Shown here piece after piece: positions 12,188-47,740 of a stretch of DNA of 64,000 nt. The DNA lies in the NCBI GenBank assembly GCA_029262235.1, contig JAJCZU010000003.1, positions 496,001-560,000 on the forward strand. The letters are read 5' to 3'. The notes below the pieces were generated by a model. The model worked only from the letters and a program-made list of their open reading frames with translations. It was not told where the DNA came from and made no database searches. Both the position numbers and the translations under genes were made by a program. The DNA comes from Candidatus Eiseniibacteriota bacterium. Its GTDB lineage: Bacteria > Orphanbacterota > Orphanbacteria > Orphanbacterales > Orphanbacteraceae. The number at the start of each line of letters is the position of its first letter. The stretch's first letter is position 1.

Positions 12188-13764
12188 TGTACGACGTCAT
12201 CGTAATCGGCGCGGGGCACAACGGTCTCACCTGTGCGGCCACGCTCGCGAAGGCCGGGCGCAAGGTGCTCGTGCTCGAAGCCGCGCACGAAGCCGGCGGT
12301 CTCGCCGCGGGCCGGCCGTTCCATGCCGGATACACCGTGCCGGGGATTCTGCACGACACCTCCGGAGTCCGCACGCGCGTCGTCTCCTCGCTCGGGCTCG
12401 CAAAGCACGGTCTCCGTTTCGAAAGCGAAGAGCGGGCGGGCCTCGGGCTCGCGCCGGGGGAGTCGCCGATCGCGTTTTATCGCGATCCCGTGAAGACCGC
12501 GCCCTACCTGACACAGATCAGCCCGAACGAAGCCGGCCACTACGCCTCCTACTGCGGTTTCCTGAAGAAGATCGGACGATTTCTCGAGCCGCTCGTGAAC
12601 GACCTTCCCCCGCAGATTGCGGCGTCGAACGCGTCGGACATGTGGGGACTCCTGAAAGCCGGCGCAAACCTGCGCCGTCTCGGCCGCGCCGAGATGATCG
12701 ACTTCCTGCGGATCGGGCCGATGCCCGTGAACGACTGGGTGCGCGAGTATTTCACCGACGAGCGCATCTGCGCCTACCTCGCGGGGCCCGGCGTCTGGGG
12801 ATCGTTTCTCGGGCCGTGGTCGCCGGGGACCACCGCGACGCTGCTCATGCAGGAAGCGGTGCGCGGACCGCAGATCGAAGGCGGCCCGGCCGCGCTGATC
12901 CGGGCGCTCGAAGCCGCCGCTCTCGCTCACGGCGCCGAAGTCCGAACGGATGCCGCGGTCGCGAAGATCGTGGTCGGCAATTCGGGTGCCACGGGCGTGG
13001 TGCTCGCGTCGGGCGAATCGATCGAAGCGAAAAGAATCGCGTCGTCCTGCGATCCGAAAACCACGTTTCTCGATCTTGTCGAACCCGCCCGCATTTCGAT
13101 TCCGCTCGAAGCCAAGATCCGGAACTATCGTCAGCGCGGCGTGATCGCGAAGCTGCACTATGCGCTCAGTGCGCCGTTCGTGCCGGGCGGGAGCGGAAGC
13201 GGCGCGACAGGCGGCGCAAGCGCTGGCGCGAATGGTGTGCCGGCGTTTTCGAGCGCGCGGATCGCGGCGTCGCTCGCCGAGATCGAGCGCTCGTTCGACT
13301 CGGTCAAGTACGGCACGATTCCCGAAGCCCCCTACCTCGATCTGCATGTTTCGACGGCCACGGATACTTCACTCGCGCCCGACGGCCACGCCGTGCTGTC
13401 TGTCTGCGCCTACGGTGTGCCGCACGACGTCGAGGGCGGCTGGACAGACAATCGCCGCCGGGAACTCCGCGAGCGCGTCGACGCGCGCATCGAATCCGTC
13501 GCCCCCGGCTTCTCGAAGACCGTCGTTCACTGCGAACTGCTGACACCGCCCGATCTCGCCCGAGAGCTCCGCATTCAGGGCGGCCATCTCTACCACGGGG
13601 AACACGGCCTCGACCAGCTGCTGTTCATGCGTCCCGTCGCCCCGTGTTCACGCTACGCCACTCCCGTCCCCGGACTCTATCTCTGCGGCAGCGGTTCCCA
13701 TCCCGGCGGCGGCATTACGTGCGCGCCCGGGGAGATCGCGGCCGGCGTGATCCTGAAGGGATGA
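12187..13764 (+). CDS. Second PYROXD2-like FAD oxidoreductase
   Basis: The start is ATG 12187, overlapping the previous stop. The 525-residue product begins V-I-V-I-G-A-G-H-N-G-L-T-C-A-A and ends with C-G-S-G-S-H-P-G-G-G-I-T-C-A-P-G, so it is a paralogue of the upstream gene, although the middle regions differ considerably. A Gly/Ala/Ser-rich insert (about residues 333-345) looks like a flexible loop. The two may form a heterodimer, or be an old tandem duplication with divided substrates; both ideas are inference. The stop overlaps the start of the SnoaL-like gene. Confidence 0.9.
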   Translation: MYDVIVIGAGHNGLTCAATLAKAGRKVLVLEAAHEAGGLAAGRPFHAGYTVPGILHDTSGVRTRVVSSLGLAKHGLRFESEERAGLGLAPGESPIAFYRDPVKTAPYLTQISPNEAGHYASYCGFLKKIGRFLEPLVNDLPPQIAASNASDMWGLLKAGANLRRLGRAEMIDFLRIGPMPVNDWVREYFTDERICAYLAGPGVWGSFLGPWSPGTTATLLMQEAVRGPQIEGGPAALIRALEAAALAHGAEVRTDAAVAKIVVGNSGATGVVLASGESIEAKRIASSCDPKTTFLDLVEPARISIPLEAKIRNYRQRGVIAKLHYALSAPFVPGGSGSGATGGASAGANGVPAFSSARIAASLAEIERSFDSVKYGTIPEAPYLDLHVSTATDTSLAPDGHAVLSVCAYGVPHDVEGGWTDNRRRELRERVDARIESVAPGFSKTVVHCELLTPPDLARELRIQGGHLYHGEHGLDQLLFMRPVAPCSRYATPVPGLYLCGSGSHPGGGITCAPGEIAAGVILKG

Positions 13765-31017: not shown

Positions 31018-33491
31018 TCGTTCCTCATCTCGTCCGTTCGGTGCTTCACATCGGCCGCCGACTGCCGGTAGCTGTCTTCATCAGGATGCTCTACCACGAG
31101 GCCGGCGAGAATCTCGCCGGCCTCGACGTGCCGGTCGAGCGCTTCGCGGCGGCGGCCGAGCTTCCATAGAACTTCACCGGACACCGTGAGCGCCAGCGCG
31201 AGGTCGGAACGGAAGAGGGTCGACCCGGGCGAACGGGAAAGGATATGCCGGCGAAGCCGGAGCAGTTCTTCATAGTACCCGATGGCCTGGTCGTGCCGGG
31301 CGCCGAGGTCCGCAAGCTCGCCCAGGTCATGCAGCAGGCTTGCTGTGTTTCTGTGCGCCGTGATGTCGTCCGGATCGGCTTCCGCCAGCCCGCGATAGAA
31401 CTCCATGGACCCCGTGATTTCCTCTTCGCCGCGGGCGGTATCTCCCTGGCTTACGTATGTCCAGCCGAGGTTGTAACGCAGGTTCGCGAGCACGGGGCGA
31501 AGCGCGGCGTGCTGCCGGGCTTCCTCCGCCAGCGGCACAAGGAGTGGCGCCAGAAGCTCGATCGTCATTTCGGGCCGGCCCTGGAACCGATACGCCTGAC
31601 TGAGCGCAGTGAGCGTCACCACTTTCGACTGATAGAGATCGGGCCGGCCCGGATAGCGCGCGGTCAGGTCGTCCCCGATCGCGGCGGCTCGCTCGAAGTG
31701 CTCGATCGATTCGCCGGGCTGCGACAGTCGCTCGAGCGCGTACGCGAGCTGGAAGTGCACTGTATCAAGGCGCGGCGGGAGCAGTTCGGCGCCCGGGTCC
31801 GTTTCTGAGAGTCGCTCCCGTTTCACGAGCGCCGCACGGAAGTGCTCGATCGTGGCGTCCAGATTTCCGAGGTGCCGCGAAAGGTCCCCCGCGAGAAGGT
31901 CTGCCTCGACGGCAATGAGAATGGACTCGCGTCCGACCGGGTCGACCACGCTGAGGCGGCGGGCAATGTCCTGTCCCTTGCGCGCGCTCACGAGCGCGGC
32001 CTCGGCGTCACCGAGGCTCGGGGATTTCGGATCGCCCTGGATCGCCGCGACCCGGAAGTACCCGCGGGCGACGTCGCGGAGTACGCGCGGATCGTCGCCG
32101 GGCGCCGCCGCGAGTTCGTCGAGATACGCCACGCTCGTCGAGACGATTCTTTCCCGCGCTGCAGTCTTTCCCTCCGTCGCGATCGCATTGTCCACGTCTA
32201 TCAGAAAAGTGGCCGCGAGTTCCCGGCCGTCCTCGAAGCGCGCGTCGGCGATGGCGCGCTGCTCCCTCTCACGGAGCGCAAAATGAACACTCACGGCGGC
32301 GCCGGCGACGAGCGCGAGGACGAGTGCCGCGGCGGCCCCGACAAGCGCGCGGTTCCGCACCACGAACTTCGTGGTTCGATAGACGAGCGTGTCCGGTCGC
32401 GCGATGACAGGAAAACCGTCGAGGTGTTTGCGTATGTCCTCCGAGAATTGTTCCACGGATCCGTAGCGGCGGTCCGGTTCCTTGCGAAGCGCCATGAGCA
32501 CGATGTTGTCGAGGTCACCGGAGAGGCGGCGCGAAAGCGCGCGCTTGCCGCCTTCGCGGTCGGCGATCAGAGATGCCTGCACGGCCGCGCTCGGCCTGGT
32601 CGGTTCGATCTCGGTGATCGCTCGCTCCATCTCGCGCGGGGAGAGGCGTTCCGTGTCGTACGGCCGCCCGCCAGTCAGCAGCTCGAAGAGAACCACGCCG
32701 AGCGAGTACACATCTGACGTTGTGGTCACGCTTCCTGTCACGATCTGTTCGGGGCTGGCGTAGCGCGGAGTCAGCGCGCGCGCGGCCGTTTCGGTGACGT
32801 CGCCGCCGCCCTCGGCTTCGAGCACCTTGGCGATGCCGAAGTCGAGCAGCTTCGGCGAGCCCTCTTTCGTGACGAGCACGTTCGACGGTTTGAGGTCGCG
32901 GTGAACGACGAGGTTCCGGTGCGCGTGCTGGACGGCGCTGCAGACGTTTCGGAACAGCTGGAGTCGTTCCGTAAGCGAGAGTCGCGTGTCGTCACAGTAC
33001 CGATCGATCGCGGTTCCCTCCACGTATTCCATGACGAGGAAGGGAACGCCCTCGTCCGTGGTGCCGCCGTCGATGAGGCGGGCGATGTTCGGATGTTCGA
33101 GGCCGGCGAGCACGCGCCGCTCGTGGTCGAAGCGGCGCAGAAGGGCATCCGTCCACAGGCCGCCGCGAATGACTTTCACTGCAGCTTTCATTTCGAACGC
33201 CGGATCGGCGCGCTCGGCCAGGTAAACGTGCCCCATCCCCCCCGAGCCGATGGCGCGAACGAGCCGCCACGCTCCGAGCGTCTTTCCGATGTTCGGATCC
33301 TTGCCCTCGCCGCCTTCACGCATGGGCTCGAGAAAGCGATGGGCGTTGTCATCCGCCGCGAGCAGCGAGTCCAGTTCCGCGCGAAGTGCGTCGTCGGCAC
33401 CGCACTCCCTGTCGAGGAACGCAGATCGCTCGGGCGCAGGGAGGTTCATGGCGTCGCAGAAAATCCGTGCGACTCGATCGGCGTCAGTCAT
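31014..33491 (-). CDS. Ser/Thr kinase with TPR region, paired with ECF sigma factor
   Basis: This 825-residue kinase has glycine loop I-G-S-G-G-M-G at 81-87, Lys106, H-R-D-L-K-P-S-N at 197-204 and D-F-G at 217-219. An N-terminal helical module (E-R-S-A-F-L-D-R-E-C-G) matches those of the 21.7 kb and 53.7 kb kinases. A membrane segment near 370-395 is followed by about 420 residues of TPR-like helices. Its start overlaps the end of the ECF sigma gene by 8 bp, with GAGGGCGAC as the ribosome site inside that gene, so translation is coupled. This is a strong sign that kinase and sigma factor work together. Confidence 0.92.
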   Translation of the reverse strand: MTDADRVARIFCDAMNLPAPERSAFLDRECGADDALRAELDSLLAADDNAHRFLEPMREGGEGKDPNIGKTLGAWRLVRAIGSGGMGHVYLAERADPAFEMKAAVKVIRGGLWTDALLRRFDHERRVLAGLEHPNIARLIDGGTTDEGVPFLVMEYVEGTAIDRYCDDTRLSLTERLQLFRNVCSAVQHAHRNLVVHRDLKPSNVLVTKEGSPKLLDFGIAKVLEAEGGGDVTETAARALTPRYASPEQIVTGSVTTTSDVYSLGVVLFELLTGGRPYDTERLSPREMERAITEIEPTRPSAAVQASLIADREGGKRALSRRLSGDLDNIVLMALRKEPDRRYGSVEQFSEDIRKHLDGFPVIARPDTLVYRTTKFVVRNRALVGAAAALVLALVAGAAVSVHFALREREQRAIADARFEDGRELAATFLIDVDNAIATEGKTAARERIVSTSVAYLDELAAAPGDDPRVLRDVARGYFRVAAIQGDPKSPSLGDAEAALVSARKGQDIARRLSVVDPVGRESILIAVEADLLAGDLSRHLGNLDATIEHFRAALVKRERLSETDPGAELLPPRLDTVHFQLAYALERLSQPGESIEHFERAAAIGDDLTARYPGRPDLYQSKVVTLTALSQAYRFQGRPEMTIELLAPLLVPLAEEARQHAALRPVLANLRYNLGWTYVSQGDTARGEEEITGSMEFYRGLAEADPDDITAHRNTASLLHDLGELADLGARHDQAIGYYEELLRLRRHILSRSPGSTLFRSDLALALTVSGEVLWKLGRRREALDRHVEAGEILAGLVVEHPDEDSYRQSAADVKHRTDEMRND

Positions 33492-34068
33492 TGTCGCCCT
33501 CGCTTTGACCGGTCAGCTCGCGATAGAGCCACGCGCGTCCGAATCGCCAGTGCCGTTCGACCGTACGCTCGCTGACGCCGAGTACTTCGGCGATTTCGCC
33601 GTGCGTGAGTCCGCCGAAGAATCGCATCTCCACGATCCGTTCCTTTTCCGGATGTTGCTCGCCGAGCTTCTCGAGCGCGCGGCCGAGCGCCAGCGCGTGC
33701 GTGTCCGGCACCTTCCCCAGGGTGACGGCTTCGTCCAGGCTGACCTTCTGCTGCCCGCCCCATCGCTTGATCCGCCCCTTGCTCCGCGCGTTGTCGATCA
33801 GCACCTGCCGGATCGCGCGCGCCGCCACGGCGAAGAAGTGCGCGCGATCGCGCCAGCCGGTGCGCGTCCGGTCTATGAGTTTCAGATACGCCTCGTTCAC
33901 GAGCGCCGTGGCCTGCAAAGTGTCGTCCCCGGCGCCGCCGCCGGACAGATAGCTTTGCGCCAGGAGGCGCAGCTCGTCGTAGATCACCGGGAAAAGCTGG
34001 TCGATAGCGGCGGCGTCCCCGCCGACAGCCTTCCCCAGGACGCGCGTGTTTTCGGAACGGTCCGCCAT
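33484..34068 (-). CDS. ECF sigma factor, TIGR02999/ECF43-like
   Basis: This 194-residue sigma factor has F-P-V-I-Y-D-E-L-R-L-L-A and T-L-Q-A-T-A-L-V-N-E-A-Y-L-K-L (50-64) in region 2, and I-V-E-M-R-F-F-G-G-L-T-H-G-E-I-A-E-V-L-G-V-S in region 4. The region 2.2 acidic segment is replaced by Q-A-T-A with Thr54. Its 3' end overlaps the kinase start by 8 bp and no anti-sigma gene is present. Characterised ECF43 members (EcfP with kinase PknT in Vibrio parahaemolyticus) are switched on by kinase phosphorylation in this segment; that mechanism is inferred here. Confidence 0.9.
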   Translation of the reverse strand: MADRSENTRVLGKAVGGDAAAIDQLFPVIYDELRLLAQSYLSGGGAGDDTLQATALVNEAYLKLIDRTRTGWRDRAHFFAVAARAIRQVLIDNARSKGRIKRWGGQQKVSLDEAVTLGKVPDTHALALGRALEKLGEQHPEKERIVEMRFFGGLTHGEIAEVLGVSERTVERHWRFGRAWLYRELTGQSEGDND

Positions 34069-36296: not shown

Positions 36297-36971
36297 CTAG
36301 CCGAGGTCACCGTTTTCGGCGGCCTTCCGCAGTTTTTCGTTCGCGATGATGGCGATTTCCACGCGACGGTTCTGCTGGCGACCGGCGCTCGTTTCGTTCG
36401 AGGCGACGGGGTTCGACTCGCCGAGTCCGATGGTCCAGATCCTGGCTCCGGCGACGCCGCGGGACTTCTGATAGTTGGCGACTGCTTCCGCACGGCGCTC
36501 CGACAATGTCTGGTTGTGACTGGTGGTGCCGGTATTGTCCGTGTCCCCTTCCACCATGATGTTCGTGTCGGGATACTTGTTCAGGATGAGCGCCAGACTC
36601 TCGATGTTCGCCCTTGCTTCGGGGCGCAGCTGGTACGAATTGATATCGAAGAGGATTCCTGAATCGAACGTGATCTTGATGCCTTCACCGACACGTTCGA
36701 TGCGCGCGTTCTTCATGTCCCGCTGCATCTCTTCGGCCTGCTTGTCCATGTGGCGACCGATGAGCGCTCCGGTCGTACCGCCGACCGCAGCTCCTATGAT
36801 GGCGCCGGTCGCGGTGTTGCCGGTCTGATGTCCGATGATGCCGCCGACGGCCCCTCCGGCTCCGGCGCCGATCGCGCCACCTTTCCACGTATTGCTCGCT
36901 CCGCAGCCCATCGCCACGGCAAGTGACGCCGCGAGAATCATCGTCAGAACCGTTGTCGGATGCTTTCTCAT
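36297..36971 (-). CDS. OmpA-family lipoprotein with glycine zipper
   Basis: Translation starts at ATG 36971, with AAGGAGG upstream at ideal spacing; an upstream in-frame ATG (36995) lies before this ribosome site. The 224-residue product has a lipoprotein signal ending V-A-M-G-C, a glycine-zipper segment (G-A-I-G-A-G-A-G-G-A-V-G-G-I-I-G), and an OmpA peptidoglycan-binding domain with F-D-S-G-I-L-F-D, L-S-E-R-R-A-E-A-V and N-R-R-V-E-I. It should link the outer membrane to the cell wall. A sigma-54 promoter at 37040-37055 and an enhancer-like site at 37134-37144 lie upstream, placing it in the sigma-54 island. Confidence 0.92.
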   Translation of the reverse strand: MRKHPTTVLTMILAASLAVAMGCGASNTWKGGAIGAGAGGAVGGIIGHQTGNTATGAIIGAAVGGTTGALIGRHMDKQAEEMQRDMKNARIERVGEGIKITFDSGILFDINSYQLRPEARANIESLALILNKYPDTNIMVEGDTDNTGTTSHNQTLSERRAEAVANYQKSRGVAGARIWTIGLGESNPVASNETSAGRQQNRRVEIAIIANEKLRKAAENGDLG

Positions 36972-37039: not shown

Positions 37040-37055
37040 CGCAATGCGTATGCCA
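37040..37055 (-). promoter_or_regulatory. Sigma-54 promoter for OmpA lipoprotein gene
   Basis: On the minus strand this reads TGGCATACGCATTGCG, with GG and GC separated by exactly 10 bp as required for the -24/-12 elements. It lies about 70 bp before the lipoprotein start. Confidence 0.78.
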
Positions 37056-37133
37056 TTTCGGTATTAATTGTTAACAGCTTGAGTTTTATCACGATGGCTT
37101 CGGTACGCGCGAAAGGGCGCTCGTGCGAATCCA

Positions 37134-37144
37134 ATCACAATGAT
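37134..37144 (-). promoter_or_regulatory. Enhancer-like activator site (UAS)
   Basis: The minus strand reads ATCATTGTGAT, identical to the core at 45963-45973 and one base different from 40416-40426. Its first base is 90 bp upstream of the -24 GG at 37054. Confidence 0.7.
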
Positions 37145-37189
37145 CGAAAGAGTGGTCAGAATGGTCAGGTGTGGCGAGGATCAGGCGCG

Positions 37190-38287
37190 TCAAGCCTCGC
37201 TTTTCTTAAGCTCCTCGAACAACTCGCGCTGGCGTGGCGTCAGGCTGGGGGGCGACTGGATCATGACGCGGGCGACATGATCCCCGCCGCGAATCCCCTG
37301 CCCCCGGAGCCGGAGCTGGGCGCCCGAAGACGTTCCGGGCGGGATAGCCAGCTGGACCTGCCCGTGCAGTGTCCGCATCGGCGTCTTGCCTCCGAGCGCG
37401 GCCGTGGCCATGGGAACCGGGACGTCTGAGTGAATGTCGTTTCCTTCGCGGTGGTAGACCGGATCGGGGCGCACGCGCACGTGGACCCTGAGATCTCCGG
37501 GCGCACCACCCCCCGTTCCCGCTCCTCCGAGCCCGCGAAGTCGGAGCGTTGCCTTGTCCTCCGTTCCTTCCGGAATGGTGATGTTGACCCGCCGCGTTTT
37601 CTCGATCGTGCCCTCGCCCTGGCACTCGGGGCATTCTTTTGACGGGTCCACGCCCGTGCCGTGACAGGTCGCGCAGGGGCGCGTGACGGTAAAGAACTCC
37701 CCCTTGTCTTTGGACTGGACTGTGGTTCGCCCGCTTCCCAGGCATCTCGGACACCGGGGATCGTCGCCGGTGGCGCCGCGTCCGTCGCAGTGCGTGCAGG
37801 CCACGGCGCCGGAGAGTGATACGGATACTTTTCCCCCGAGCGTCGCGGTGCGGAAATCGACATCGAGCGCTACCTCGGCGTCGTGCCCGGGGCGGGAGGG
37901 GCCGCGCGAACGGTGGACTTCTTCCCCGAATTCGCCGCCGAAGATGCCCCCGAAGCGGCGCAGGATTTCGTCGACCGACATCGACTCGGCGTCCGCCCCG
38001 AAAGGCGCGTGACCGCCGGGACTGCCGTGCCCGCCGGGCCCGGAGCGTTCTCGGAATCCCGGCCCGGAAGCGGCGCGCCCTTTGAGCCCCTCGTCGTACT
38101 CGCGGCGCTTCTCCGGATCAGAAAGAATCTCGTACGCAGTGGCCAGTTCCTTGAACTTCTCTTCGGCCGCCGCGTCTCCCGGGTTTTTGTCGGGATGGAA
38201 CTTGAGGGCGAGCGCACGGTACGCCTTCTTGATCTCTTTCGGTGTCGCGGAGCTCGCCACGCCCAGAGTCTCGTAGTGGTTCTTCAT
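37190..38287 (-). CDS. dnaJ: DnaJ-type Hsp40 co-chaperone
   Basis: The start is ATG 38287, overlapping the Hsp20-like stop (ATGA); the open frame runs further upstream but without homology. The 365-residue product is a complete type I Hsp40: J domain with F-H-P-D-K-N-P-G (HPD motif), a Gly-rich linker, and four zinc motifs ([32 protein letters not shown]), then the substrate-binding C domain. It would stimulate DnaK ATPase. No dnaK or grpE is nearby, so this is probably a dedicated paralogue working with the Hsp20-like protein and the sigma-54 activator operon. Confidence 0.93.
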
Positions 38288-38640
38288 CGACCGGCCCCGC
38301 GCCGGACCCGGCGAACCCGAACTTCCAGCGTCTCTTCCGTGAACCGTATGACCGCCGGTTCCGGGTCGAACCCGCGCGGCACGGGGAGGATGGCTACCAG
38401 AAGCGCTGGTTCCGGCCACACGCGGTTCGCTCGGATGACGAAGACCTCGCTCGTGATCTCGACATCGATGTCGGCCTCGACCACGTCTTCGAGGGGCACG
38501 AACCAGCAGAGGCCGGTTGCCTCGGCCGCCCACCGGACGGCTACCTCCTGCGCATCCGGAGTCTCGCGCAGGAAGGTCGCGTATCGGCGGCGCAGCCGTG
38601 CAATCTCACTTTCGATCTCCTCGATCACTTTCGGATGCAT
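38284..38640 (-). CDS. Hsp20/alpha-crystallin-like small protein (divergent)
   Basis: This 118-residue protein starts at ATG 38640 with AAGGGA upstream. The second half resembles an alpha-crystallin core: [15 protein letters not shown] strands, then [14 protein letters not shown] and the closing T-L-E-V-R-V-R-R strand. The N-terminal 40 residues are helical. The usual L-P-G-V loop is missing, so it is a divergent member. It lies between the sigma-54 activator and dnaJ, with a 4-bp overlap with the latter. A holdase role with the DnaJ protein is a reasonable inference; a CbpM-like modulator is the main alternative. Confidence 0.65.
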
Positions 38641-38707: not shown

Positions 38708-40363
38708 TCAGTCATCTTCCTTTTTGGCGCCTCTGCTGCGGACCGCTCCGTACTTCTTGAGCTTGCGGTAGAGCGTCGCCGAGCCGATGCCGAGCTGTTC
38801 GGACGTGCGGGTCTGGTTTCCGCCGTTCAGTTCGAGCACCGCCAGGATGTAGTCCATCTCGACTTCGTCGAGAGCCTTGATCGGGTGCGTGGCCAGGGGG
38901 AGGGGAATCGCCTTGCGAACCTCCTCGGGAAGGTCGTCTGTTTCGATCCGGTTGCCGGCGGCGAGCGCGACCGCGCGCTCCATGGCGTTTTCGAGTTCGC
39001 GCACGTTGCCGGGCCATTGGTACTGAAGGAGCTGGTCCGCCGCGTGCGGCGAGAGCTGGGAGAGCGGCCGGCGGAGGCGCTCCGCGGCGTCGGCCAGCAG
39101 TACACGGGCGAGCGGGAGAATGTCTTCCCGCCGGTTCCGGAGCGGGGGCACGTGCAGCTGGATGACGTTCAGCCGGTAATAGAGGTCCCTGCGAAAACGC
39201 CCCGTCTCGATGTCGTCGGCGAGCTCGCGGTTGGTCGACGCGATCACGCGCGCGTTTACGGGCCGGCTCTTGTTTTCACCAACCCGTCTGATCTCGCGTT
39301 CCTGCAGCACCCGGAGCAGCTTCACCTGCATACCCGTCGAAATCTCGCCGATCTCGTCGAGCAGGATCGTTCCCCCGTTCGCCGCTTCGAACAGACCGGG
39401 CCGGTCGCGCACCGCGCCGGTGAACGCGCCGCGCGCGTGACCGAAGAGCTCACTTTCGAGGATCGTCTCGGTGATCGCACCGCAGTTGACGGCGATGAAC
39501 GGGCCCGAAGCGCGTATCGATTCATCGTGAACCACGCGCGCAATGCGCTCCTTGCCCGTCCCGCTTTCGCCCATGATGAGCAGCGCCGAGTCGACCTTCG
39601 CCACGCGGCGCGCGAGATCGATGACCCGTCTCATGGAGTTGCTCCTGGCGATCATCCCGAATGGGTCGTCGATTTCGGGCGCCACGCGGGAAAGAGCGCG
39701 CTTCTTGATAAGGAGTTTCTTCTCGGCCTCTTTGAGGTTTTCCGTCATCTTGTGGAGCGAGGGCTCCAGCCAGTCCACGAGGTTTTCGGAGCGGAAGAAG
39801 CCGAGTTCCTCCGCTCGCTCGTCACCCCATTCTTCGCGGGTTCGTGCGAGAAGATGGCATGTGGCGTCGCCCTTCCCGATGCAGCGCTCTTCGAGTACGA
39901 AAATCTCCTTGCCGGTCGCGCGGCTCAGATATCCGCTCGTCAGCCCGCAGATCGTCCAGCAGACGGAGTCGTCGCTCTGTCCGATATGGGCGATGTGCTG
40001 CTCCGCTTCGAACGAGTCGGCAAGTGTAAGTCCCTCTTTCGTGAGCGAGCCGGCCGTACCGGGCTTCAGCCGGTACATCCCCTCGAGCATGTGAATGCGC
40101 CCGCACGCATGGTGCCAGTCCTCCAGGCTCTCCCAGTCGAACAGGTCCTGCATCGCCTCGGCCATGCGCCAGCCCTGAATGAAACCGAAGCGGGTCAGTA
40201 TGATGCGCGCCGTCGTGATGCCGAAGGCGTTGATCAGCTCTTTGCGCAGGTTGCCCTTCGCTGTCGCGTCGATGATGAGCGCTCGCTGGCCGGCGAAGCG
40301 GACGAGGCCGTCCTCGGAATCGAACTCGACCAGTTCATTGATGTTCAGGTCCTCGACTCGCAT
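38708..40363 (-). CDS. Sigma-54-dependent activator, XylR_N-V4R-AAA-Fis
   Basis: This 551-residue enhancer-binding protein has an XylR-type N-terminal domain (about 9-110), a V4R ligand-binding domain (about 120-175), and a sigma-54 activation AAA+ domain with G-E-S-G-T-G-K at 265-271, G-A-F-T-G-A at 312-317 and L-L-D-E at 334-337. A C-terminal Fis-type helix-turn-helix ([18 protein letters not shown]) binds DNA. XylR_N/V4R proteins are usually triggered by a small hydrophobic ligand rather than a phosphorelay. It is co-directional with hsp20-like and dnaJ genes and is the obvious activator of the three sigma-54 promoters nearby. The ribosome site is AAAGG. Confidence 0.94.
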
Positions 40364-40412
40364 GATGCTGCCTTTCAGTATTTCAACATTTTAGTCTCGT
40401 TTTGATTGACGC

Positions 40413-40429
40413 TAGATCATTTTGATCTA
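40413..40429 (+). promoter_or_regulatory. Palindromic enhancer (UAS) for the 40.6 kb operon
   Basis: TAGATCA-TTT-TGATCTA is a perfect 7-bp inverted repeat with 3-bp spacer. The core ATCATTTTGAT starts 89 bp upstream of the -24 GG at 40505. A half site TTTTGAT lies 20 bp (two helical turns) upstream. It also sits about 50 bp from the activator gene start, so autoregulation is possible. Confidence 0.75.
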
Positions 40430-40502
40430 AACGGCAAGGAGGGTCGGCGGGCAAGAGAGGGAACAGGAGTGCTAACTGATGCCGCTACACCGCTTCATGG
40501 AA

Positions 40503-40519
40503 TCGGCACGTTACTTGCG
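40503..40519 (+). promoter_or_regulatory. Sigma-54 promoter for eight-gene operon
   Basis: TCGGCACGTTACTTGCG has GG (40505-40506) and GC (40517-40518) 10 bp apart and matches the TGGCACG-N4-TTGCW consensus at nearly every position. It is 84 bp before the sugar transferase start. Confidence 0.85.
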
Positions 40520-40602: not shown

Positions 40603-41358
40603 GTGAACGGAAGTAGCCGGGGCCGCCGCACCTTGAACATCGTGGTGGCAATCCTCGGCCTTATCCTCGCTGCCCCCGCCTTGCTGCTCTTAGCTCTTGC
40701 GGTGAGGCTCTCGTCTTCGGGCCCTGTCATCTACAGCCAGGAGCGGGTGGGCCTGGAACGGCGCCGCCGGGATGGAGATCGGCGGTCCCGGAGCCGGGGC
40801 GGACCGGACCGGAGGCAGTCGGACGCGGGAGGGAAGATCTTCCGCATGCACAAGTTCCGGACTATGTACGTAAACGGCACCAGCAATGGCAATGGCATTA
40901 GGAACGAAAACGACAACGGGAACGGCGTGCGCGAAAAGCAGGTGTGGGCCGCGAAGGACGATCCCCGGATCACTTCGGTGGGGCGCGTACTTCGGGCTTT
41001 CCGGCTCGACGAACTTCCGCAGCTGGTCCATGTCCTCGTCGGCGACATGAATATCGTCGGCCCCCGGCCGGAACAACCGGAGATCTTCCACGAGCTGCGG
41101 CAGGAGATTGCCGAGTACCCGAAGCGCCAGTGCGTCCTTCCGGGTATCACGGGGCTGGCCCAGGTGAATCGCGGCTATGACCGGTGCGTCGAGGACGTGA
41201 GACGCAAGCTGAACCACGACCTCGATTACTTGAAGACGACTTCCGTAGGCAGGGATCTGAAGATCATGTTGAAGACCATACCCGTGATGCTGTTCAAGAA
41301 GGGCGATCTCTCGGGTCGGGTGGCGGACGATGGGGAAACGAAAAGGAGACTCTCGTGA
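40603..41358 (+). CDS. Undecaprenyl-phosphate sugar phosphotransferase (bacterial sugar transferase)
   Basis: GTG 40603 has GGAG upstream. The 251-residue product is a WcaJ/PglC-type phosphoglycosyl transferase core (PF02397): one N-terminal membrane helix, S-S-G-P-V-I-Y-S-Q-E-R-V-G, H-K-F-R-T-M, R-L-D-E-L-P-Q-L, G-D-M-N-I-V-G-P-R-P-E and P-G-I-T-G-L-A-Q-V-N. It would start glycan synthesis by placing a sugar phosphate on undecaprenyl phosphate. Two unusual insertions are seen: an Arg-rich segment of about 23 residues after E-R-V-G and an Asn/Gly-rich segment after R-T-M. No other polysaccharide genes are in the island. It is the first gene after the sigma-54 promoter. Confidence 0.9.
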   Translation: MNGSSRGRRTLNIVVAILGLILAAPALLLLALAVRLSSSGPVIYSQERVGLERRRRDGDRRSRSRGGPDRRQSDAGGKIFRMHKFRTMYVNGTSNGNGIRNENDNGNGVREKQVWAAKDDPRITSVGRVLRAFRLDELPQLVHVLVGDMNIVGPRPEQPEIFHELRQEIAEYPKRQCVLPGITGLAQVNRGYDRCVEDVRRKLNHDLDYLKTTSVGRDLKIMLKTIPVMLFKKGDLSGRVADDGETKRRLS

Positions 41359-41636
41359 AAGCGGAGATCGAGAAGATGGAAGCCCAACTCGAGGTTTGGG
41401 ACGCAAAAATCATTAATTTCGCGGTCCGGGCCGACAAGGCCCGCGGCCAGGCGCAGGCCGACCTCCGTTACCACGTTGACAGCCTGAAAGTGAAGCGGGC
41501 AATGGCCCACGCGAAGCTCGACGAAATGAGGGCGGCGGGAAAAGAGAAGCAGGAGAACCTGAAGGAGGGACTCGAAACCGCCTGGAAAGATCTCGAGGCG
41601 GCCTTCAAGAAGCTGGGCAAGAAGCTGGGTTCCTAG
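41355..41636 (+). CDS. Small coiled-coil protein (sll1863 stress-protein-like)
   Basis: This 93-residue protein starts at GTG 41355, overlapping the sugar transferase stop (GTGA), with AAAGGAG upstream. It is almost wholly heptad-like alpha-helix (E-K-M-E-A-Q-L-E-V-W-D-A-K-I and A-W-K-D-L-E-A-A-F-K-K-L), rich in Lys, Glu and Ala. It resembles the small coiled-coil proteins annotated as sll1863-type stress proteins. A molecular function is not known. Its position in a sigma-54 operon with other envelope proteins supports a stress or envelope role. Confidence 0.75.
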   Translation: MKAEIEKMEAQLEVWDAKIINFAVRADKARGQAQADLRYHVDSLKVKRAMAHAKLDEMRAAGKEKQENLKEGLETAWKDLEAAFKKLGKKLGS

Positions 41637-41707
41637 CCGGGTTCATGGCCGAGTTCCGAATGTGTCTCGGCCGCTCGTCCATCGACACAAAGAAAGTTAT
41701 TTTAACT

Positions 41708-42364
41708 ATGAAACGAATGCAAGGCAAGATCAGTATTTTGGCTCTGGCCGCCGTGGTCGTAATGGCGGGATGCAACGAGGGCGAAAGCAGTGAGGCGACA
41801 AAGAGCAATGAGGCGCAGAAAACGACGAAGAATGCTTCTCATACGATGGTCATCCCGGCCGGGACCAGCGTCGTCGTAGAGCTCGATTCGCGACTGACGA
41901 CGGACAAGAACGTCACCGGCGACCGTTTCGCCGCCACAACGACCGAGCCCATCGTGGTCGGCGGGATGACCGTCATTCCGGCCGGCGCAAGAATCGAGGG
42001 CGTGCTGCAGGACGTCGAGGCATCCGGCCGGGTCAAGGGCCGGGCCCGCATGACGCTCGCCTACCAGCGGGTCGTGGACTCGAAGGGCACGGCCCACGCG
42101 ATTTCCGCCGCGCCGCTCAAGCTTCAGGCGGCATCCGAAAAGACCAGCGACGTCGAGAAGATCGCAGCGGGCACCGTGCTCGGCGGACTCATCGGCGGAA
42201 TCGCCGGCGGGGAGAAGGGCGCCTTGATCGGAGCGGGCGCCGGAGCAGGCGCGGGCACCGTTCTCATGCTCGCCACCAAAGGGGACGAGATCGAACTCGA
42301 ATCAGGTCAGAAGCTGATCATTTCGATGATGGGGCCCGTGAACATCGACATGGCGGCGCATTAA
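41708..42364 (+). CDS. Glycine-zipper lipoprotein
   Basis: ATG 41708 is selected because it is followed at once by a lipoprotein signal ending V-V-M-A-G-C; the frame extends to 41645 without a signal-compatible sequence. The 218-residue product has a low-complexity Ser/Lys/Glu linker, a beta-rich domain (V-I-P-A-G-T-S-V-V-V-E-L and V-I-P-A-G-A-R-I-E-G-V repeat-like strands), and a glycine zipper (L-G-G-L-I-G-G-I-A-G-G). It is probably anchored in the outer membrane. No ribosome site is obvious. It lies 71 bp after the coiled-coil gene in the sigma-54 operon. Confidence 0.82.
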   Translation: MKRMQGKISILALAAVVVMAGCNEGESSEATKSNEAQKTTKNASHTMVIPAGTSVVVELDSRLTTDKNVTGDRFAATTTEPIVVGGMTVIPAGARIEGVLQDVEASGRVKGRARMTLAYQRVVDSKGTAHAISAAPLKLQAASEKTSDVEKIAAGTVLGGLIGGIAGGEKGALIGAGAGAGAGTVLMLATKGDEIELESGQKLIISMMGPVNIDMAAH

Positions 42365-42403: not shown

Positions 42404-42922
42404 ATGAAGATAGCAATGATTGTTGCGCTGGCGACGCTGGCGCTCACCGCGAGCGGCGCGCTCGCGGACGGCGGTTTGGATCATACGGAAGAGGTCGGAT
42501 ATCGTGGATGGGGGCCGCGGGTCGGGCTTACGCTCGACCCCGATCAGGTCCACTTCGGTGCGCATCTGGACTTCGGCAACTTCGCGCAGCACGTTCGCTT
42601 TCAGCCGAACATCGAGCTCGGCTTCGGCGACCACATCAAACTCGTGACGGTGAACTTCGAGGCGGCATACCGGTTCCGCGAGAACTGGGACGTCTGGTCG
42701 CCCTATCTGGGCGGGGGCCTTGGAGTGAACTTCTGGAGCTTCGACAACGGGCGCGGCAACGGGCGCGGCAGCGCTTCGAGCACGGAGCTCGGTGTGAACC
42801 TGCTCGGCGGGATCGAAAAGGGGCTGTCGAGCGGTAACCGCTTCTTCACGGAAGCGAAGCTGGGCCTGGTGAACGAATCACCCGACCTGAAACTGACGGC
42901 CGGGTGGACTTTCTATCACTAA
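42404..42922 (+). CDS. Outer-membrane beta-barrel protein
   Basis: This 172-residue protein has a signal peptide (A-L-A-D cleavage) and alternating beta-strand patterns typical of a small eight-stranded barrel, such as V-G-L-T-L-D, F-Q-P-N-I-E-L-G-F-G and N-F-E-A-A-Y-R-F. It ends in aromatic-terminated W-T-F-Y-H. A Gly/Asn/Arg-rich loop (N-G-R-G-N-G-R-G) lies near residue 120. It is probably structural or a porin-like OmpA/OmpX relative. It belongs to the sigma-54 operon with 39 and 33 bp to its neighbours. Confidence 0.78.
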   Translation: MKIAMIVALATLALTASGALADGGLDHTEEVGYRGWGPRVGLTLDPDQVHFGAHLDFGNFAQHVRFQPNIELGFGDHIKLVTVNFEAAYRFRENWDVWSPYLGGGLGVNFWSFDNGRGNGRGSASSTELGVNLLGGIEKGLSSGNRFFTEAKLGLVNESPDLKLTAGWTFYH

Positions 42923-42955: not shown

Positions 42956-43102
42956 ATGTTGTATACCATCGCGTTGATTCTGCTGATTCTCTGGGTACTG
43001 GGTTTGACGACACTGAATGTGGGCGCGCTTATTCACGTTCTGCTCGTGTTCGCAATCGTTGCCGTGTTGATTCGCGTCATTCAGGGGCGAAAGATCGTGT
43101 AA
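42956..43102 (+). CDS. lmo0937-family small membrane protein
   Basis: This 48-residue protein starts at ATG 42956 with AAAAGGAGA directly upstream. It has two hydrophobic helices, beginning M-L-Y-T-I-A-L-I-L-L-I-L-W-V-L-G and ending R-V-I-Q-G-R-K, the characteristic pattern of lmo0937-family proteins. The family function is unknown; members are often stress-induced. It is easy to miss because of its size, but the ribosome site, pattern and operon position support it. Confidence 0.85.
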   Translation: MLYTIALILLILWVLGLTTLNVGALIHVLLVFAIVAVLIRVIQGRKIV

Positions 43103-43130: not shown

Positions 43131-43343
43131 ATGAAAATGATAGCGATAGCACTCGTGATCCTCGGCGTCGTCGCCCTCGTTTATGGCGGCGTGGACTACA
43201 CCCGCAACAGGACGGTTCTCGAGATAGGCGGTATGAAGGCGACGACCTCGGAACGCCATACGTACCCGATTCCGGCCGTGGCCGGGATCCTCGCACTGAT
43301 CGGCGGCGGCGCGCTTCTGGCAGTCGACAGACGCCATGCCTGA
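43131..43343 (+). CDS. Small two-TM membrane protein (DUF3185-like)
   Basis: This 70-residue protein starts at ATG 43131 with AAAGGA upstream. It has two membrane helices (I-A-I-A-L-V-I-L-G-V-V-A-L-V-Y-G-G and V-A-G-I-L-A-L-I-G-G-G-A-L-L) joined by a short polar loop containing T-T-S-E-R-H-T-Y-P-I-P. This layout is widespread next to stress and envelope genes and is usually annotated DUF3185 or similar; the exact family name is uncertain. It is in the sigma-54 operon, 28 bp after the lmo0937-like gene. Confidence 0.72.
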   Translation: MKMIAIALVILGVVALVYGGVDYTRNRTVLEIGGMKATTSERHTYPIPAVAGILALIGGGALLAVDRRHA

Positions 43344-43397: not shown

Positions 43398-43796
43398 ATG
43401 AAAGTTCACAAGCAAATTACTCTGGCAGCCTTTGCCGCGGTCGCGATTGCGATCGGTACGGCGGGAGTCAGCCACGCCGATGAGCCGCAGAATCACGTTG
43501 TCGGCACGAGCGAGATTCAAGCCAGCATCGACCAGCAGGTCCGTAAAGCCGACGCCGATCGGGAAGCCATTCAGATCATGTTGCAGCGGACTGACGTTCG
43601 CCAGATCGCCGAATCTGCCGGCATGGATATCGAGCGGGCCAGCGCCGCGGCCGCGATCCTGTCGGGATCTTCGCTCGAGAAACTGGCCGCGCAGGCAAGA
43701 GATGTCAACGCCGGCCTCGTCGGCGGAGATGGAACAATCGTCATTTCGGCGACTGCGCTCATCATCATCCTGCTGATCCTCATTCTCGTTACGTAA
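43398..43796 (+). CDS. PA2779-like small exported membrane protein
   Basis: ATG 43398 has AGGAG upstream. The 132-residue product has an N-terminal signal or anchor, a helical middle (Q-A-S-I-D-Q-Q-V-R-K-A-D-A-D-R-E-A-I) and a strongly hydrophobic C-terminal helix (A-L-I-I-I-L-L-I-L-I-L). This is the layout of PA2779-family proteins. In other bacteria PA2779 is next to PA2778, a C39-like peptidase, and the same pairing occurs here with the next gene 11 bp downstream. The two probably act together at the membrane; the function is unknown. Confidence 0.8.
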   Translation: MKVHKQITLAAFAAVAIAIGTAGVSHADEPQNHVVGTSEIQASIDQQVRKADADREAIQIMLQRTDVRQIAESAGMDIERASAAAAILSGSSLEKLAAQARDVNAGLVGGDGTIVISATALIIILLILILVT

Positions 43797-43807
43797 GCCG
43801 TCGACTC

Positions 43808-45928
43808 GTGAAACGGATTGGTGCCATCGGCGTCTGCCTGGCGGCGGCCGCTCTTGCATGGCCGGTCCCCGCAATCACCGGGGCGCCCTCGTTCGAGAGG
43901 AGCGCCCCGCGCAGGGTGCAGCTTCTCGACGTCCCGTATGTCCCCCAGAGTGGTGAATTGTGCGGCGGGGCCGCGGTCGCCATGGTCCTGCGTTACTGGG
44001 GGGAGCCCGGCGTCTTTGCCGAAGACTTCGCCGCACTGGTTCAGCCTGGTGACGCCGGCATACGAACCGGCGCACTCGTACAAGCCGTCGATGCCCGGGG
44101 GTGGACCGCGCTTCCTTTGCCGGGTACTCCGGCCGAAGTGGAAGACCACCTGGCTCGGGGGCGTCCGATCATCACACTGATCCGGTCGGGGTCAAACTCA
44201 TTTCATTACGTAGTCCTCGTGGCCCGGGCGAACGGATGGGTGATTCTTCATGACCCCCTCGCGGGGCCGTTCCGTGCCATGCGCGAGAGCGAGTTCGATG
44301 CCGCGTGGTCCGCAAGTGGAGGGTGGGCGCTTCTGATCCTTCCCCCGCGCGGAGCAGACGAAGAGGGCGCGCCGGACCTTGGGCCGGGTCGTACGCCGGA
44401 CCTAACGCCGGATCGTGCGCAGGATCCCGCGCGGGTCGTGCATTCCTCTTTCGCCGCCTCTGATGACTGCGGCGTAATGGTTGAGGCAGGAATCATCTCG
44501 GCGGCGCACGGAAACGATGCGGAAGCCGAGCGCACGTTTCTCGCGGCGCATTCACTGTGCCCGGCATCCGCCGCACCGCTGCGGGAACTCGCGGGGCTCC
44601 GGTTTCGCGCGGAAGACTGGGCGGGGGCGAGCCGGCTGGCCGGGCGTGCACTGGAACTTGACTCGTCCGATACCAACGCCAGGCGGATCCTCGCCGGCAG
44701 CTGCTTTCTGATGGGGGATGTCGAGGGCGCACTTCGCGCCTGGAACCACCTGTCCGAACCGCGAACCGACTTGACGCGCATCGATGGCCTGACACGCATT
44801 CGCTATTCCGCCGTGACCGACCAGCTCGATTTACCTCCCGGGCGGCTTCTCACTCCGCGGAGTTTCCGTCAGGCCCGCCGGCGCCTTGCCGAAGTGCCCG
44901 CCCAGTCGGGGTTCCGGCTGAGCCTCCGGCCCCTGCCCGAAGGAAACGCTCAGGTGAACGTCACTCTTCTCGAACGCCCGGCTGTTTTCGATGGTCCGTG
45001 GGATGTCGGGAGCGTGGGGATCAAGGCTCTCACGAGACGTGAGATCACCCTCGACGTGGCGAGCCCCACCGGGAACGGCGAGCTGTGGACGGCCGGGTGG
45101 AGGTGGTGGACGAACCGCCCCCGGGTATCGCTGTCGCTGGCGGTTCCGGCAGCCGGCCGGCGGCCCGGAATCTGGCGCCTGGATGGTTACTGGGAACAAC
45201 AGACTTATGCGGGGGCTTATTCCGTTTCGAGCGACACGACAGAAGAAGAGGTCGGGCGAGAGGAACGCCGACGCACTGCACTTTCCTTCTCCGACTGGCT
45301 CGGTCCGGACTTCCGCTTCGAAATCGGCGCTGCCCTCGACAAGTGGGTCGATCGGGGTTCGCATGTATCCCTCGAAGGGAGCATCGAAATCCGACTGTGG
45401 CGCGACCGCCTGGGGTTCGGCGCGCGAGGCGCGGGCTGGGCCGCACTCGCCGGCGGCGCTCCGTTCCAGGCGGGTGACCTGTCTATGCGATGGTGCTCCG
45501 ACGGCGTCGAGAGAGGCGAGGCATGGCAGGCCCGATTCGGAATCGCAACCACGACTTCGCAAGCTCCGCTGGCTCTCTGGTCCGGAGCGGGAACAGGATA
45601 CGGGCGCGCCCCGCTTCTCCGGGCTCATCCGCTGCTCGACGACGGTGTCGTTCAGGGGCGGGCCTTCGGGCGCACGCTCCTTCACGGGACGATCGAGAAG
45701 CAGGCGTGGTTTGCGGGAGTGGGGCCGCTGCAGATCGGCTGGGCTCTTTTCGCCGACGGGGCGAAGCCGTGGCACACCGGGCGCGCGGACCGGGTCCCGT
45801 GGCAGGTCGACGGGGGAACGGGTCTCCGGCTGCGGGGACCGGGCATGAACGGGCAGTTCCGCATCGATGCGGCCCGCGGGTTCAATGACGGCAGTTCGGC
45901 TCTCTCCGTTGCCTGGCAGGTACGATGA
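43808..45928 (+). CDS. PA2778-like C39-type cysteine peptidase fused to TPR and beta-rich C-terminal region
   Basis: This 706-residue protein has a signal peptide, then a papain-like C39 domain (about 38-175) with Cys52 in G-E-L-C-G-G-A-A, His133 in S-F-H-Y-V-V-L-V and Asp149 in H-D-P, so the triad looks intact. A TPR-like stretch follows (about 215-310: E-A-E-R-T-F-L-A-A-H; W-A-G-A-S-R-L-A-G-R-A-L). The last ~370 residues alternate like beta-strands with many aromatic ends and could be a barrel. PA2778-type proteins usually stop after the TPRs, so the extension is unusual. It is the last gene of the sigma-54 operon. Start GTG has a weak ribosome site. Confidence 0.8.
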   Translation: MKRIGAIGVCLAAAALAWPVPAITGAPSFERSAPRRVQLLDVPYVPQSGELCGGAAVAMVLRYWGEPGVFAEDFAALVQPGDAGIRTGALVQAVDARGWTALPLPGTPAEVEDHLARGRPIITLIRSGSNSFHYVVLVARANGWVILHDPLAGPFRAMRESEFDAAWSASGGWALLILPPRGADEEGAPDLGPGRTPDLTPDRAQDPARVVHSSFAASDDCGVMVEAGIISAAHGNDAEAERTFLAAHSLCPASAAPLRELAGLRFRAEDWAGASRLAGRALELDSSDTNARRILAGSCFLMGDVEGALRAWNHLSEPRTDLTRIDGLTRIRYSAVTDQLDLPPGRLLTPRSFRQARRRLAEVPAQSGFRLSLRPLPEGNAQVNVTLLERPAVFDGPWDVGSVGIKALTRREITLDVASPTGNGELWTAGWRWWTNRPRVSLSLAVPAAGRRPGIWRLDGYWEQQTYAGAYSVSSDTTEEEVGREERRRTALSFSDWLGPDFRFEIGAALDKWVDRGSHVSLEGSIEIRLWRDRLGFGARGAGWAALAGGAPFQAGDLSMRWCSDGVERGEAWQARFGIATTTSQAPLALWSGAGTGYGRAPLLRAHPLLDDGVVQGRAFGRTLLHGTIEKQAWFAGVGPLQIGWALFADGAKPWHTGRADRVPWQVDGGTGLRLRGPGMNGQFRIDAARGFNDGSSALSVAWQVR

Positions 45929-45959
45929 GCCCGCGGATCGATTCATCTTGATGGTCTTT

Positions 45960-45976
45960 GCCATCATTGTGATGGC
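45960..45976 (+). promoter_or_regulatory. Palindromic enhancer (UAS) for PKD-OmpA gene
   Basis: GCCATCA-TTG-TGATGGC is a perfect 7-bp inverted repeat with 3-bp spacer. The core ATCATTGTGAT (45963-45973) begins 90 bp upstream of the -24 GG at 46053 and equals the 37134-37144 core on the other strand. Confidence 0.76.
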
Positions 45977-46051: not shown

Positions 46052-46067
46052 TGGCACGCAAGTTGCG
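46052..46067 (+). promoter_or_regulatory. Sigma-54 promoter for PKD-OmpA gene
   Basis: TGGCACGCAAGTTGCG is a near-perfect -24/-12 element with GG (46053-46054) and GC (46065-46066) 10 bp apart, 45 bp before the start codon. Confidence 0.88.
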
Positions 46068-46111: not shown

Positions 46112-47740
46112 ATGAAGAAGATAAATTGCCTGATGAGCATGATGACAATAGCGGCGGCGCTGGCCTTGTCGGTCAGTCCGCTGCAGGGAGCGGAGACGGG
46201 CACGAAATGGGGACTGGGTCTGCAGGGCGGAGCTTACAAGCTCGTCTTGACTGACCACTCCGACGCCTGGACGCCGGGCTGGCTCCTGAACGCCGACTTG
46301 AAGTACAAAGTAGCGCCCCGCGTCGCCATTGGCGTGGAGGGAAGCTTGATGCGGACCTACCTGGCCGATCTGAGCGAGGGGAGCAAGCTGGAGGACGGGG
46401 CACGAGGATCGACCGACAACATCGCCGACGGTCCGCGCCAGCGTGCGTTCGTGGCCGGTGTGTTCGCGGAGTACCATTTCCGTGAAGACGCGAGCTGGTC
46501 GCCGTACGTCGTCGCCGGTCCCGGACTTTACCTCTGGAAATGGTCCGACAAAGACGGGAACACATTGATGTCCGACGACGCCGCGCTCGACGACCCCGCA
46601 CGCGTGGGTATGAGCGTCCCGCCGGAAGACCTGGTCGGCGATCCCTACGAACTGAAGGACCAGGAGCTGTACGCGATGGTCGGGGCCGGCGTGGAGTTCT
46701 TCCAGTCCGAGGCACTCTCTTTCGAACTGGGAGCCAAGTTCCGTTATCTGACTCACCTTCTTACCAGCTTCACCGACGATCAGGACGTCGTGGGATCAGA
46801 CCCCGGTCAACTGGATCTGCCCCGGGGTATCGCGGAAGTGAATGCCGGACTGACTTTCCATTTCGGCGGAGAAAGCTGCCCGCCCTCGTCGTCCAATGCG
46901 TCGGCAATTCCGACGAGCGGAGCGGCGCCGCTGTCGGTGCAGTTTACCGGCTCCGTAACAGGCGGGTGTCCGGAGTACACCTACGACTGGAACTTCGGCG
47001 ACGGCAGTTCCAGCAGCGTCCGGAACCCCAGCCATGACTACGCGACGGAAGGGAGTTACTACGCCCTGTTGACTGTCACGGACTCCAGGGGAACTCTTTC
47101 CCAGAGCGGTGTCACCATCACCGCCGGCTGTCCCATACTCACGAGCACGGCATCGGGAAGTCCCATGACCGGAACAGCTCCTTTAACTGTGAAGTTCGCG
47201 GGTTCGGCAAGCGGCGGGTGCCCGGCCATCTCTTACAAGTGGGACTTCGGCGACGGGAGCACGAGCACCGACCAGAACCCGAGCCACACCTACAAGACCG
47301 CGGGAAGCTACAGGGCCACGCTGACGGTTTCGGACTCGAAAACGAACAACAGTCAGAAAACCGTTTCCATCGGGGCGGCGGAAGAATTCGTCCCGACGCC
47401 GGAGAAGCCCGTGGTCCTCAGGGGTGTCAACTTCGAACACGACAAGGCCGTCCTTCTCGTGGAATCCAGAGAGATCCTCGACCGTGTGGCGGCGAGTTTG
47501 ATCAACCACCCGGAAGTGAACATCGAAGTCGCCGGGCATTGTGATTCCGACGGCAGCGACGTATACAACCTCGGGCTGTCGGACCGGCGCGCCAAAGCCG
47601 TGCGCGATTACCTGATCGAGCAGGGACTGCCGGCAACCAGGATGACGTCGAAGGGATATGGCGAATCGGAACCGATCGCATCGAACGCGACGAAAGAAGG
47701 AAAAGCTGCGAATCGCCGCGTCGAATTGAAGAGAAGATAG
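46112..47740 (+). CDS. Outer-membrane protein: barrel-like N terminus, two PKD domains, OmpA C terminus
   Basis: This 542-residue protein has a signal peptide (L-Q-G-A cleavage region) and a beta-rich N-terminal domain (about 30-255) resembling a small barrel (W-G-L-G-L-Q-G-G-A-Y-K-L). Two PKD domains with Y-D-W-N-F-G-D-G-S and Y-K-W-D-F-G-D-G-S (about 260-425) follow. The C-terminal OmpA domain (about 435-540) has V-N-F-E-H-D-K-A, L-S-D-R-R-A-K-A-V-R-D-Y-L and N-R-R-V-E-L. It should tether the outer membrane to peptidoglycan and expose PKD domains. It is expressed from its own sigma-54 promoter with palindromic enhancer, 183 bp after the eight-gene operon. Confidence 0.92.
   Translation: MKKINCLMSMMTIAAALALSVSPLQGAETGTKWGLGLQGGAYKLVLTDHSDAWTPGWLLNADLKYKVAPRVAIGVEGSLMRTYLADLSEGSKLEDGARGSTDNIADGPRQRAFVAGVFAEYHFREDASWSPYVVAGPGLYLWKWSDKDGNTLMSDDAALDDPARVGMSVPPEDLVGDPYELKDQELYAMVGAGVEFFQSEALSFELGAKFRYLTHLLTSFTDDQDVVGSDPGQLDLPRGIAEVNAGLTFHFGGESCPPSSSNASAIPTSGAAPLSVQFTGSVTGGCPEYTYDWNFGDGSSSSVRNPSHDYATEGSYYALLTVTDSRGTLSQSGVTITAGCPILTSTASGSPMTGTAPLTVKFAGSASGGCPAISYKWDFGDGSTSTDQNPSHTYKTAGSYRATLTVSDSKTNNSQKTVSIGAAEEFVPTPEKPVVLRGVNFEHDKAVLLVESREILDRVAASLINHPEVNIEVAGHCDSDGSDVYNLGLSDRRAKAVRDYLIEQGLPATRMTSKGYGESEPIASNATKEGKAANRRVELKRR

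Follow-up and report, generated by a model that had tools for sequence, protein, structure and literature searches.

Tandem upstream sites at three sigma-54 promoters point to a XylR-like activator subfamily with predicted envelope and stress targets

Three copies of the motif ATCATTKTGAT in a 64-kb stretch of DNA (64,000 nucleotides, hereafter the window) are very probably the promoter-proximal halves of tandem UASs, from which the activator encoded at 38708-40363 (minus strand) would open three sigma-54 promoters (P1, P2 and P3), all located within one 9-kb locus. The sites are paired, regularly spaced, conserved across phyla and linked to the activator gene, and from this linkage and the conservation of the HTH we infer that the activator contacts them.

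The P1 core, ATCATTTTGAT, is located at 40416-40426 on the plus strand, the P2 core, ATCATTGTGAT, at 45963-45973 on the plus strand, and the P3 core, with the same letters as at P2, at 37144-37134 on the minus strand. The first base of the core is 89 bp (P1), 90 bp (P2) and 90 bp (P3) from the -24 GG, and two of the three cores have perfect 7-bp inverted-repeat arms (TAGATCA/TGATCTA and GCCATCA/TGATGGC); positions, strands, distances and arms are all as given in the preliminary description of this DNA. Each promoter displays a -24 GG and a -12 GC with 10-bp spacing (TGGCAY-N5-TTGC), namely CGGCACGTTACTTGC at 40504-40518 (plus) for P1, TGGCACGCAAGTTGC at 46052-46066 (plus) for P2 and TGGCATACGCATTGC at 37041-37055 (minus) for P3, and rpoN is encoded in the genome (Sigma54_DBD, E 1.4e-62).

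The core had been described as a single enhancer site. The core itself is real, but a second copy 20-21 bp upstream was missed, and the enhancer is a tandem pair of sites rather than a single one. At P1, the proximal site TAGATCATTTTGATCTA (40413-40429, plus; 21.0 bits), 89 bp 5' of the -24 GG, is the top match in the entire window to a matrix trained on relatives only, and the distal site AGTCTCGTTTTGATTGA (40393-40409, plus; 11.3 bits), with the core CTCGTTTTGAT, is found 20 bp further 5', the pair scoring 32.3 bits. The proximal site of P2 is GCCATCATTGTGATGGC (45960-45976, plus; 10.8 bits; 90 bp 5' of the -24 GG), preceded at 21 bp by the distal site CGATTCATCTTGATGGT (45939-45955, plus; 11.3 bits) with the core TTCATCTTGAT, and this pair scores 22.2 bits. 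At P3, the proximal site TCGATCATTGTGATTGG (37131-37147, minus; 15.4 bits; 90 bp 5' of the -24 GG) is accompanied 21 bp 5' by a degenerate distal site, CTGACCATTCTGACCAC (37152-37168, minus; core ACCATTCTGAC), which alone scores -2.8 bits, with 12.7 bits for the pair. The second copy is thus clear at P1 and P2 and degenerate at P3. Two palindromes phased by whole helical turns are found at each promoter (spacings of 20, 21 and 21 bp, the third pair being weak), and since the copies are two DNA turns apart, both lie on the same DNA face.

The P1 operon, on the plus strand, begins with a bacterial sugar transferase (PF02397; 40603-41358), followed by a 93-aa protein (41355-41636) with no clear Pfam match and homologues in 14 relative loci, a YMGG-type glycine-zipper protein (41645-42364; a weak match, below the Pfam cut-off), a 172-aa protein (42404-42922) with no Pfam match that is conserved in 5 relative loci, an lmo0937-family membrane protein (42956-43102), a 70-aa small protein (43131-43343) conserved in 3 relative loci, a PA2779-family protein (43398-43796) and a C39-like cysteine peptidase/TPR protein (43808-45928; PA2778-like, below the NCBIfam cut-off). 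The relative loci L066, L067, L069 and L071 retain the middle of this operon, likewise transcribed divergently from the activator. The P2 target is an outer-membrane barrel with PKD and OmpA domains (46112-47740, plus), and the P3 target is a YiaD-type glycine-zipper/OmpA lipoprotein (36297-36971, minus; above the NCBIfam cut-off). An ECF sigma factor of the PF07638 type is encoded at 33484-34068 (minus), 3 kb from the lipoprotein gene. Just 3' of the activator gene lies the gene of a 118-aa protein without a Pfam match (38284-38640, minus), overlapped by a DnaJ co-chaperone gene (37190-38287, minus); both genes are also present in the relative L064, which suggests a link of the activator locus to proteostasis.

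In relatives, the first genes after the pair-plus-promoter units encode, among others, ice-binding-like, Big_5, pirin, GroES, YflT and Usp proteins, as well as superoxide dismutase, BON, CsbD, RelA/SpoT-like, HSP20, DUF4398, OmpA and lmo0937 proteins. This stress reading is descriptive, as the neighbouring ORFs drawn at random for comparison partly belonged to the same operons (Cpn60, pirin). The 85 first-gene targets in relatives fall into 58 families, and no aromatic-catabolism family is present among the 25 that are listed. The targets in the window are envelope genes, and the predicted targets of the activator are envelope and stress genes, not those of aromatic catabolism.

The activator is a 551-aa protein comprising XylR_N, V4R, sigma-54 AAA+ and Fis-type HTH domains. 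It has the hallmarks of a bEBP (PF00158, 1.5e-68; PF02954, 1.5e-13; a GAFTGA motif in the sequence), its sensory domains are PF06505 and PF02830 (XylR_N match, 8.7e-27), and the closest solved structure is DmpR/CapR 6iy8. Like DmpR, XylR and MopR, it has this domain order, a GAFTGA-bearing AAA+ domain, the zinc ligands C135, E158, C161 and C169 (activator numbering), a divergent target operon and palindromic UASs about 100 bp 5' of a -24/-12 promoter. The four residues of the zinc site are invariant in a six-sequence alignment, as is His91, which aligns with the pocket histidine of DmpR. It could accordingly be argued that the sites are real and that the protein is an ordinary DmpR/XylR-type aromatic sensor, the envelope targets representing a solvent-tolerance response, since domain order, zinc ligands and pocket histidine are all kept (residues in PMC7264223). 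This alternative appears unlikely on several grounds. DmpR contacts phenol through His100 and Trp128 (PMC7264223), whereas Leu114 occupies the position of the phenol-contacting tryptophan in the activator, which therefore lacks the His plus Trp combination. In a tree whose rooting is not established, DmpR, XylR, the TomR-like protein and those of Azoarcus and pNL1 are grouped with 100/99 support on a branch of 1.91 and the window clade stands outside, so that the activator is separated from the aromatic-responsive clade by a long, supported branch. Furthermore, no aromatic-catabolism genes were seen downstream of the sites in 79 activator loci.

The predicted binding site also distinguishes the activator from DmpR, XylR and the TomR-like protein, because it is of the form TTCAWWTTGAW with a spacing of 20-22 bp. 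At the DmpR locus (L212), the UAS centres are located 111 and 134 bp from the GG, 23 bp apart, and are of the TTGATCAA type; the pair matrix detected no such pair at the loci of DmpR, XylR, the TomR-like protein and two others, L212 included. A further difference from DmpR, XylR and MopR is given by the envelope and stress targets.

The favoured reading, in which the activator acts through tandem sites, draws on the 79 activator loci, which were collected by scanning genome contigs with a sensory-domain alignment and which span Eisenbacteria, Myxococcota, Acidobacteriota, Planctomycetota, Latescibacterota and others. With no prior motif, the commonest 8-mers in the 300 bp 5' of the activator genes are CATTTTGA, TCATTTTG and ATTTTGAT, present in 26, 25 and 21 of the 79 loci, where other windows of these contigs would lead one to expect 0.6, 0.5 and 0.3; one example leader reads CTCCTTCGAATTGAAGGAG..TACTTCATTTTGATTGAA. 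With a matrix trained on orthologous activator leaders only, the window left out, the pair is present in 68 of the 79 leaders, a count that is not fully independent as some training leaders come from related genomes, and in 61 of these 68 pairs the spacing is 20-22 bp. A scan of 1.2 Mb from the relatives yields 236 pairs, as opposed to a single one after shuffling; 91 units with pair and promoter in phase were also counted. Both promoters of L064, the closest relative with an ortholog, show the same arrangement. These comparisons indicate that the tandem pair is ancient and common to several phyla.

Several individual loci add to this picture. In L038, a distant relative with 46% activator identity, TATCATTTTGATA and TATCAACATGATA are found 21 bp apart 5' of the activator (L038:1362-1400), with a -24-like box 77/98 bp off on the opposite strand. 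In contig C25 of genome G057, a ATCATTTTGATCGA site is located at the far contig end (53286-53376) and the activator gene (L036) in the first bases; the contig may be circular, in which case the site would fall at the 5' end of the activator. Several pair-plus-promoter units occur within 20 kb in L104, L108, L129 and L136, so that the regulon of some Myxococcota and Holophagae is larger than that of the present genome. In near relatives, full-length orthologs are patchy, G006 (79% identity) being the only one among the family members searched. The motif had been expected in other genomes of the same family, and this was not borne out in G001-G005, as these lack the full-length activator.

The same comparisons bear on which protein uses the sites. 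The preliminary description had assigned them to a Fis-type activator encoded between the promoters, and this assignment gains from the presence of the pair in the ortholog leaders and its absence from all but one of the loci of other bEBPs (present in 1 of 24, compared to 69 of 78 ortholog leaders). In addition, the Fis-type helix is conserved together with the site, and its recognition helix is nearly constant across phyla, as expected if the helix reads the tandem site. It is very improbable that the sites are instead owned by a different regulator acting at P1-P3, be it IHF or another DNA-bending protein, or a repressor. Architectural proteins frequently sit between a UAS and a sigma-54 promoter, and the site might conceivably be used by some other DNA-binding protein inherited along with the activator; however, across phyla the pair keeps to the 5' end of a single activator family, and about 28 further sigma-54-like promoters in this genome lack it, with 0.2 as their best pair score. 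The motif is also unlike the IHF consensus (WATCAANNNNTTR), and paired palindromes two helical turns apart suit a bEBP. A strict sigma-54 box, TGGCACCCGAATTGC, at 12977-12991 (minus) of the window likewise has no enhancer pair (pair score -8.0) and presumably serves another activator. The P1 pair lies 30-66 bp 5' of the start codon of the activator, which is thus probably autoregulated through this pair.

The identical cores at identical phasing had been judged very hard to explain by chance, and the numbers agree with this view. With up to one mismatch, the window contains six matches, compared to 0.79 expected, and none of 100 dinucleotide shuffles reached six. The genome-wide tests consisted of pattern searches and of individual loci. 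Across the 4.47 Mb of the genome, ATCATTKTGAT is matched exactly only at P1-P3, each time 89-90 bp from a sigma-54 box, while a first-order Markov model predicts 1.66 copies per genome; the unlikely part is therefore the placement of the motif, not the sequence itself. Among the near-matches examined (31 of about 223 genome sites within one mismatch of ATCATTNTGAT), a sigma-54 box is found 40-140 bp downstream in three, which are P1-P3, all at 89-90 bp. A very loose promoter pattern gave matches at chance level only. Chance levels were taken from shuffles and background windows; a reversed-pattern control was biased by codon use (TGAT/ATCA common, TAGT/ACTA rare) and is not relied on. That the three matches arose by chance, given the 1.7 copies per genome predicted from composition, or by local duplication of one promoter sequence can be dismissed with near certainty, as each lies 89-90 bp from a sigma-54 box, two on the plus and one on the minus strand, the sequences between site and box differ among P1-P3, and the tandem site recurs across phyla, so that the relatives already disfavour both.

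The distance to the promoter had been proposed to be fixed at 89-90 bp, which is true of this genome only; the general rule is helical phasing. In relatives, most proximal cores start 75-79 bp before the -24 GG and fewer do so at 65-68 or 89-90 bp, and the distance is therefore stepped (about 67, 77 and 89 bp), with approximately one helical turn per step. The evidence for this stepping is the stepped distance histogram; in the Rayleigh periodicity test the 75-79 peak alone determines most of the result, so that the period is not fixed by it.

Based on these features, the UAS would consist of two imperfect palindromes of the TTCAWWTTGAW type, 20-21 bp apart (ATCATTKTGAT in this genome), and activator dimers would occupy both sites on one DNA face. 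Ligand sensing by the V4R domain would relieve the repression of the AAA+ domain, and the AAA+ domains would then form an ATPase ring. A DNA loop of about 90 bp would bring the activator to the -24/-12 box, where RNA polymerase-sigma-54 would be opened at the three promoters, the predicted outputs being the sugar-transferase/envelope operon (P1), the PKD-OmpA protein (P2) and the YiaD-like OmpA lipoprotein (P3). Binding, oligomerisation and ligand control are thus the parts of this scheme that we infer.

A bEBP with a paired UAS is a known kind of regulator. NmpR of Myxococcus xanthus also combines paired inverted-repeat UASs, a preferred helical spacing and sigma-54 promoters, and universal-stress-protein targets are discussed for it (PMC11841059); unlike the activator, it is an NtrC-like response regulator with the site GCGCA-N5-TGCGC and 14-15 bp between sites (PMC11841059). 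In the sections of Francke et al. 2011 (PMC3162934) considered here, sigma-54 promoters before exopolysaccharide, lipoprotein and envelope genes are a shared theme, XylR-like activators are given as hydrocarbon-related only and the present subfamily is not described. A search of the open-access literature found no description of a V4R sigma-54 stress regulon, and the subfamily, set apart by a site, a spacing and envelope and stress targets of its own, is apparently undescribed there.

To conclude, it is conceivable, at somewhat less than even chances, that these loci represent a sigma-54 regulon of stress and envelope genes spanning several phyla, in which a V4R ligand sensor takes the place of sigma-B, sigma-S or ECF factors and which has been misannotated as control of aromatic catabolism. 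The sites offer a DNA code open to testing, in which two TTCAWWTTGAW copies are spaced by 20-22 bp and precede a -24/-12 box by about 67, 77 or 89 bp, and by which the regulon of a widespread activator subfamily would be readable from any genome. The findings also suggest that, in many environmental lineages with few genetic tools, proteins named 'activator of aromatic catabolism' govern envelope and stress genes.
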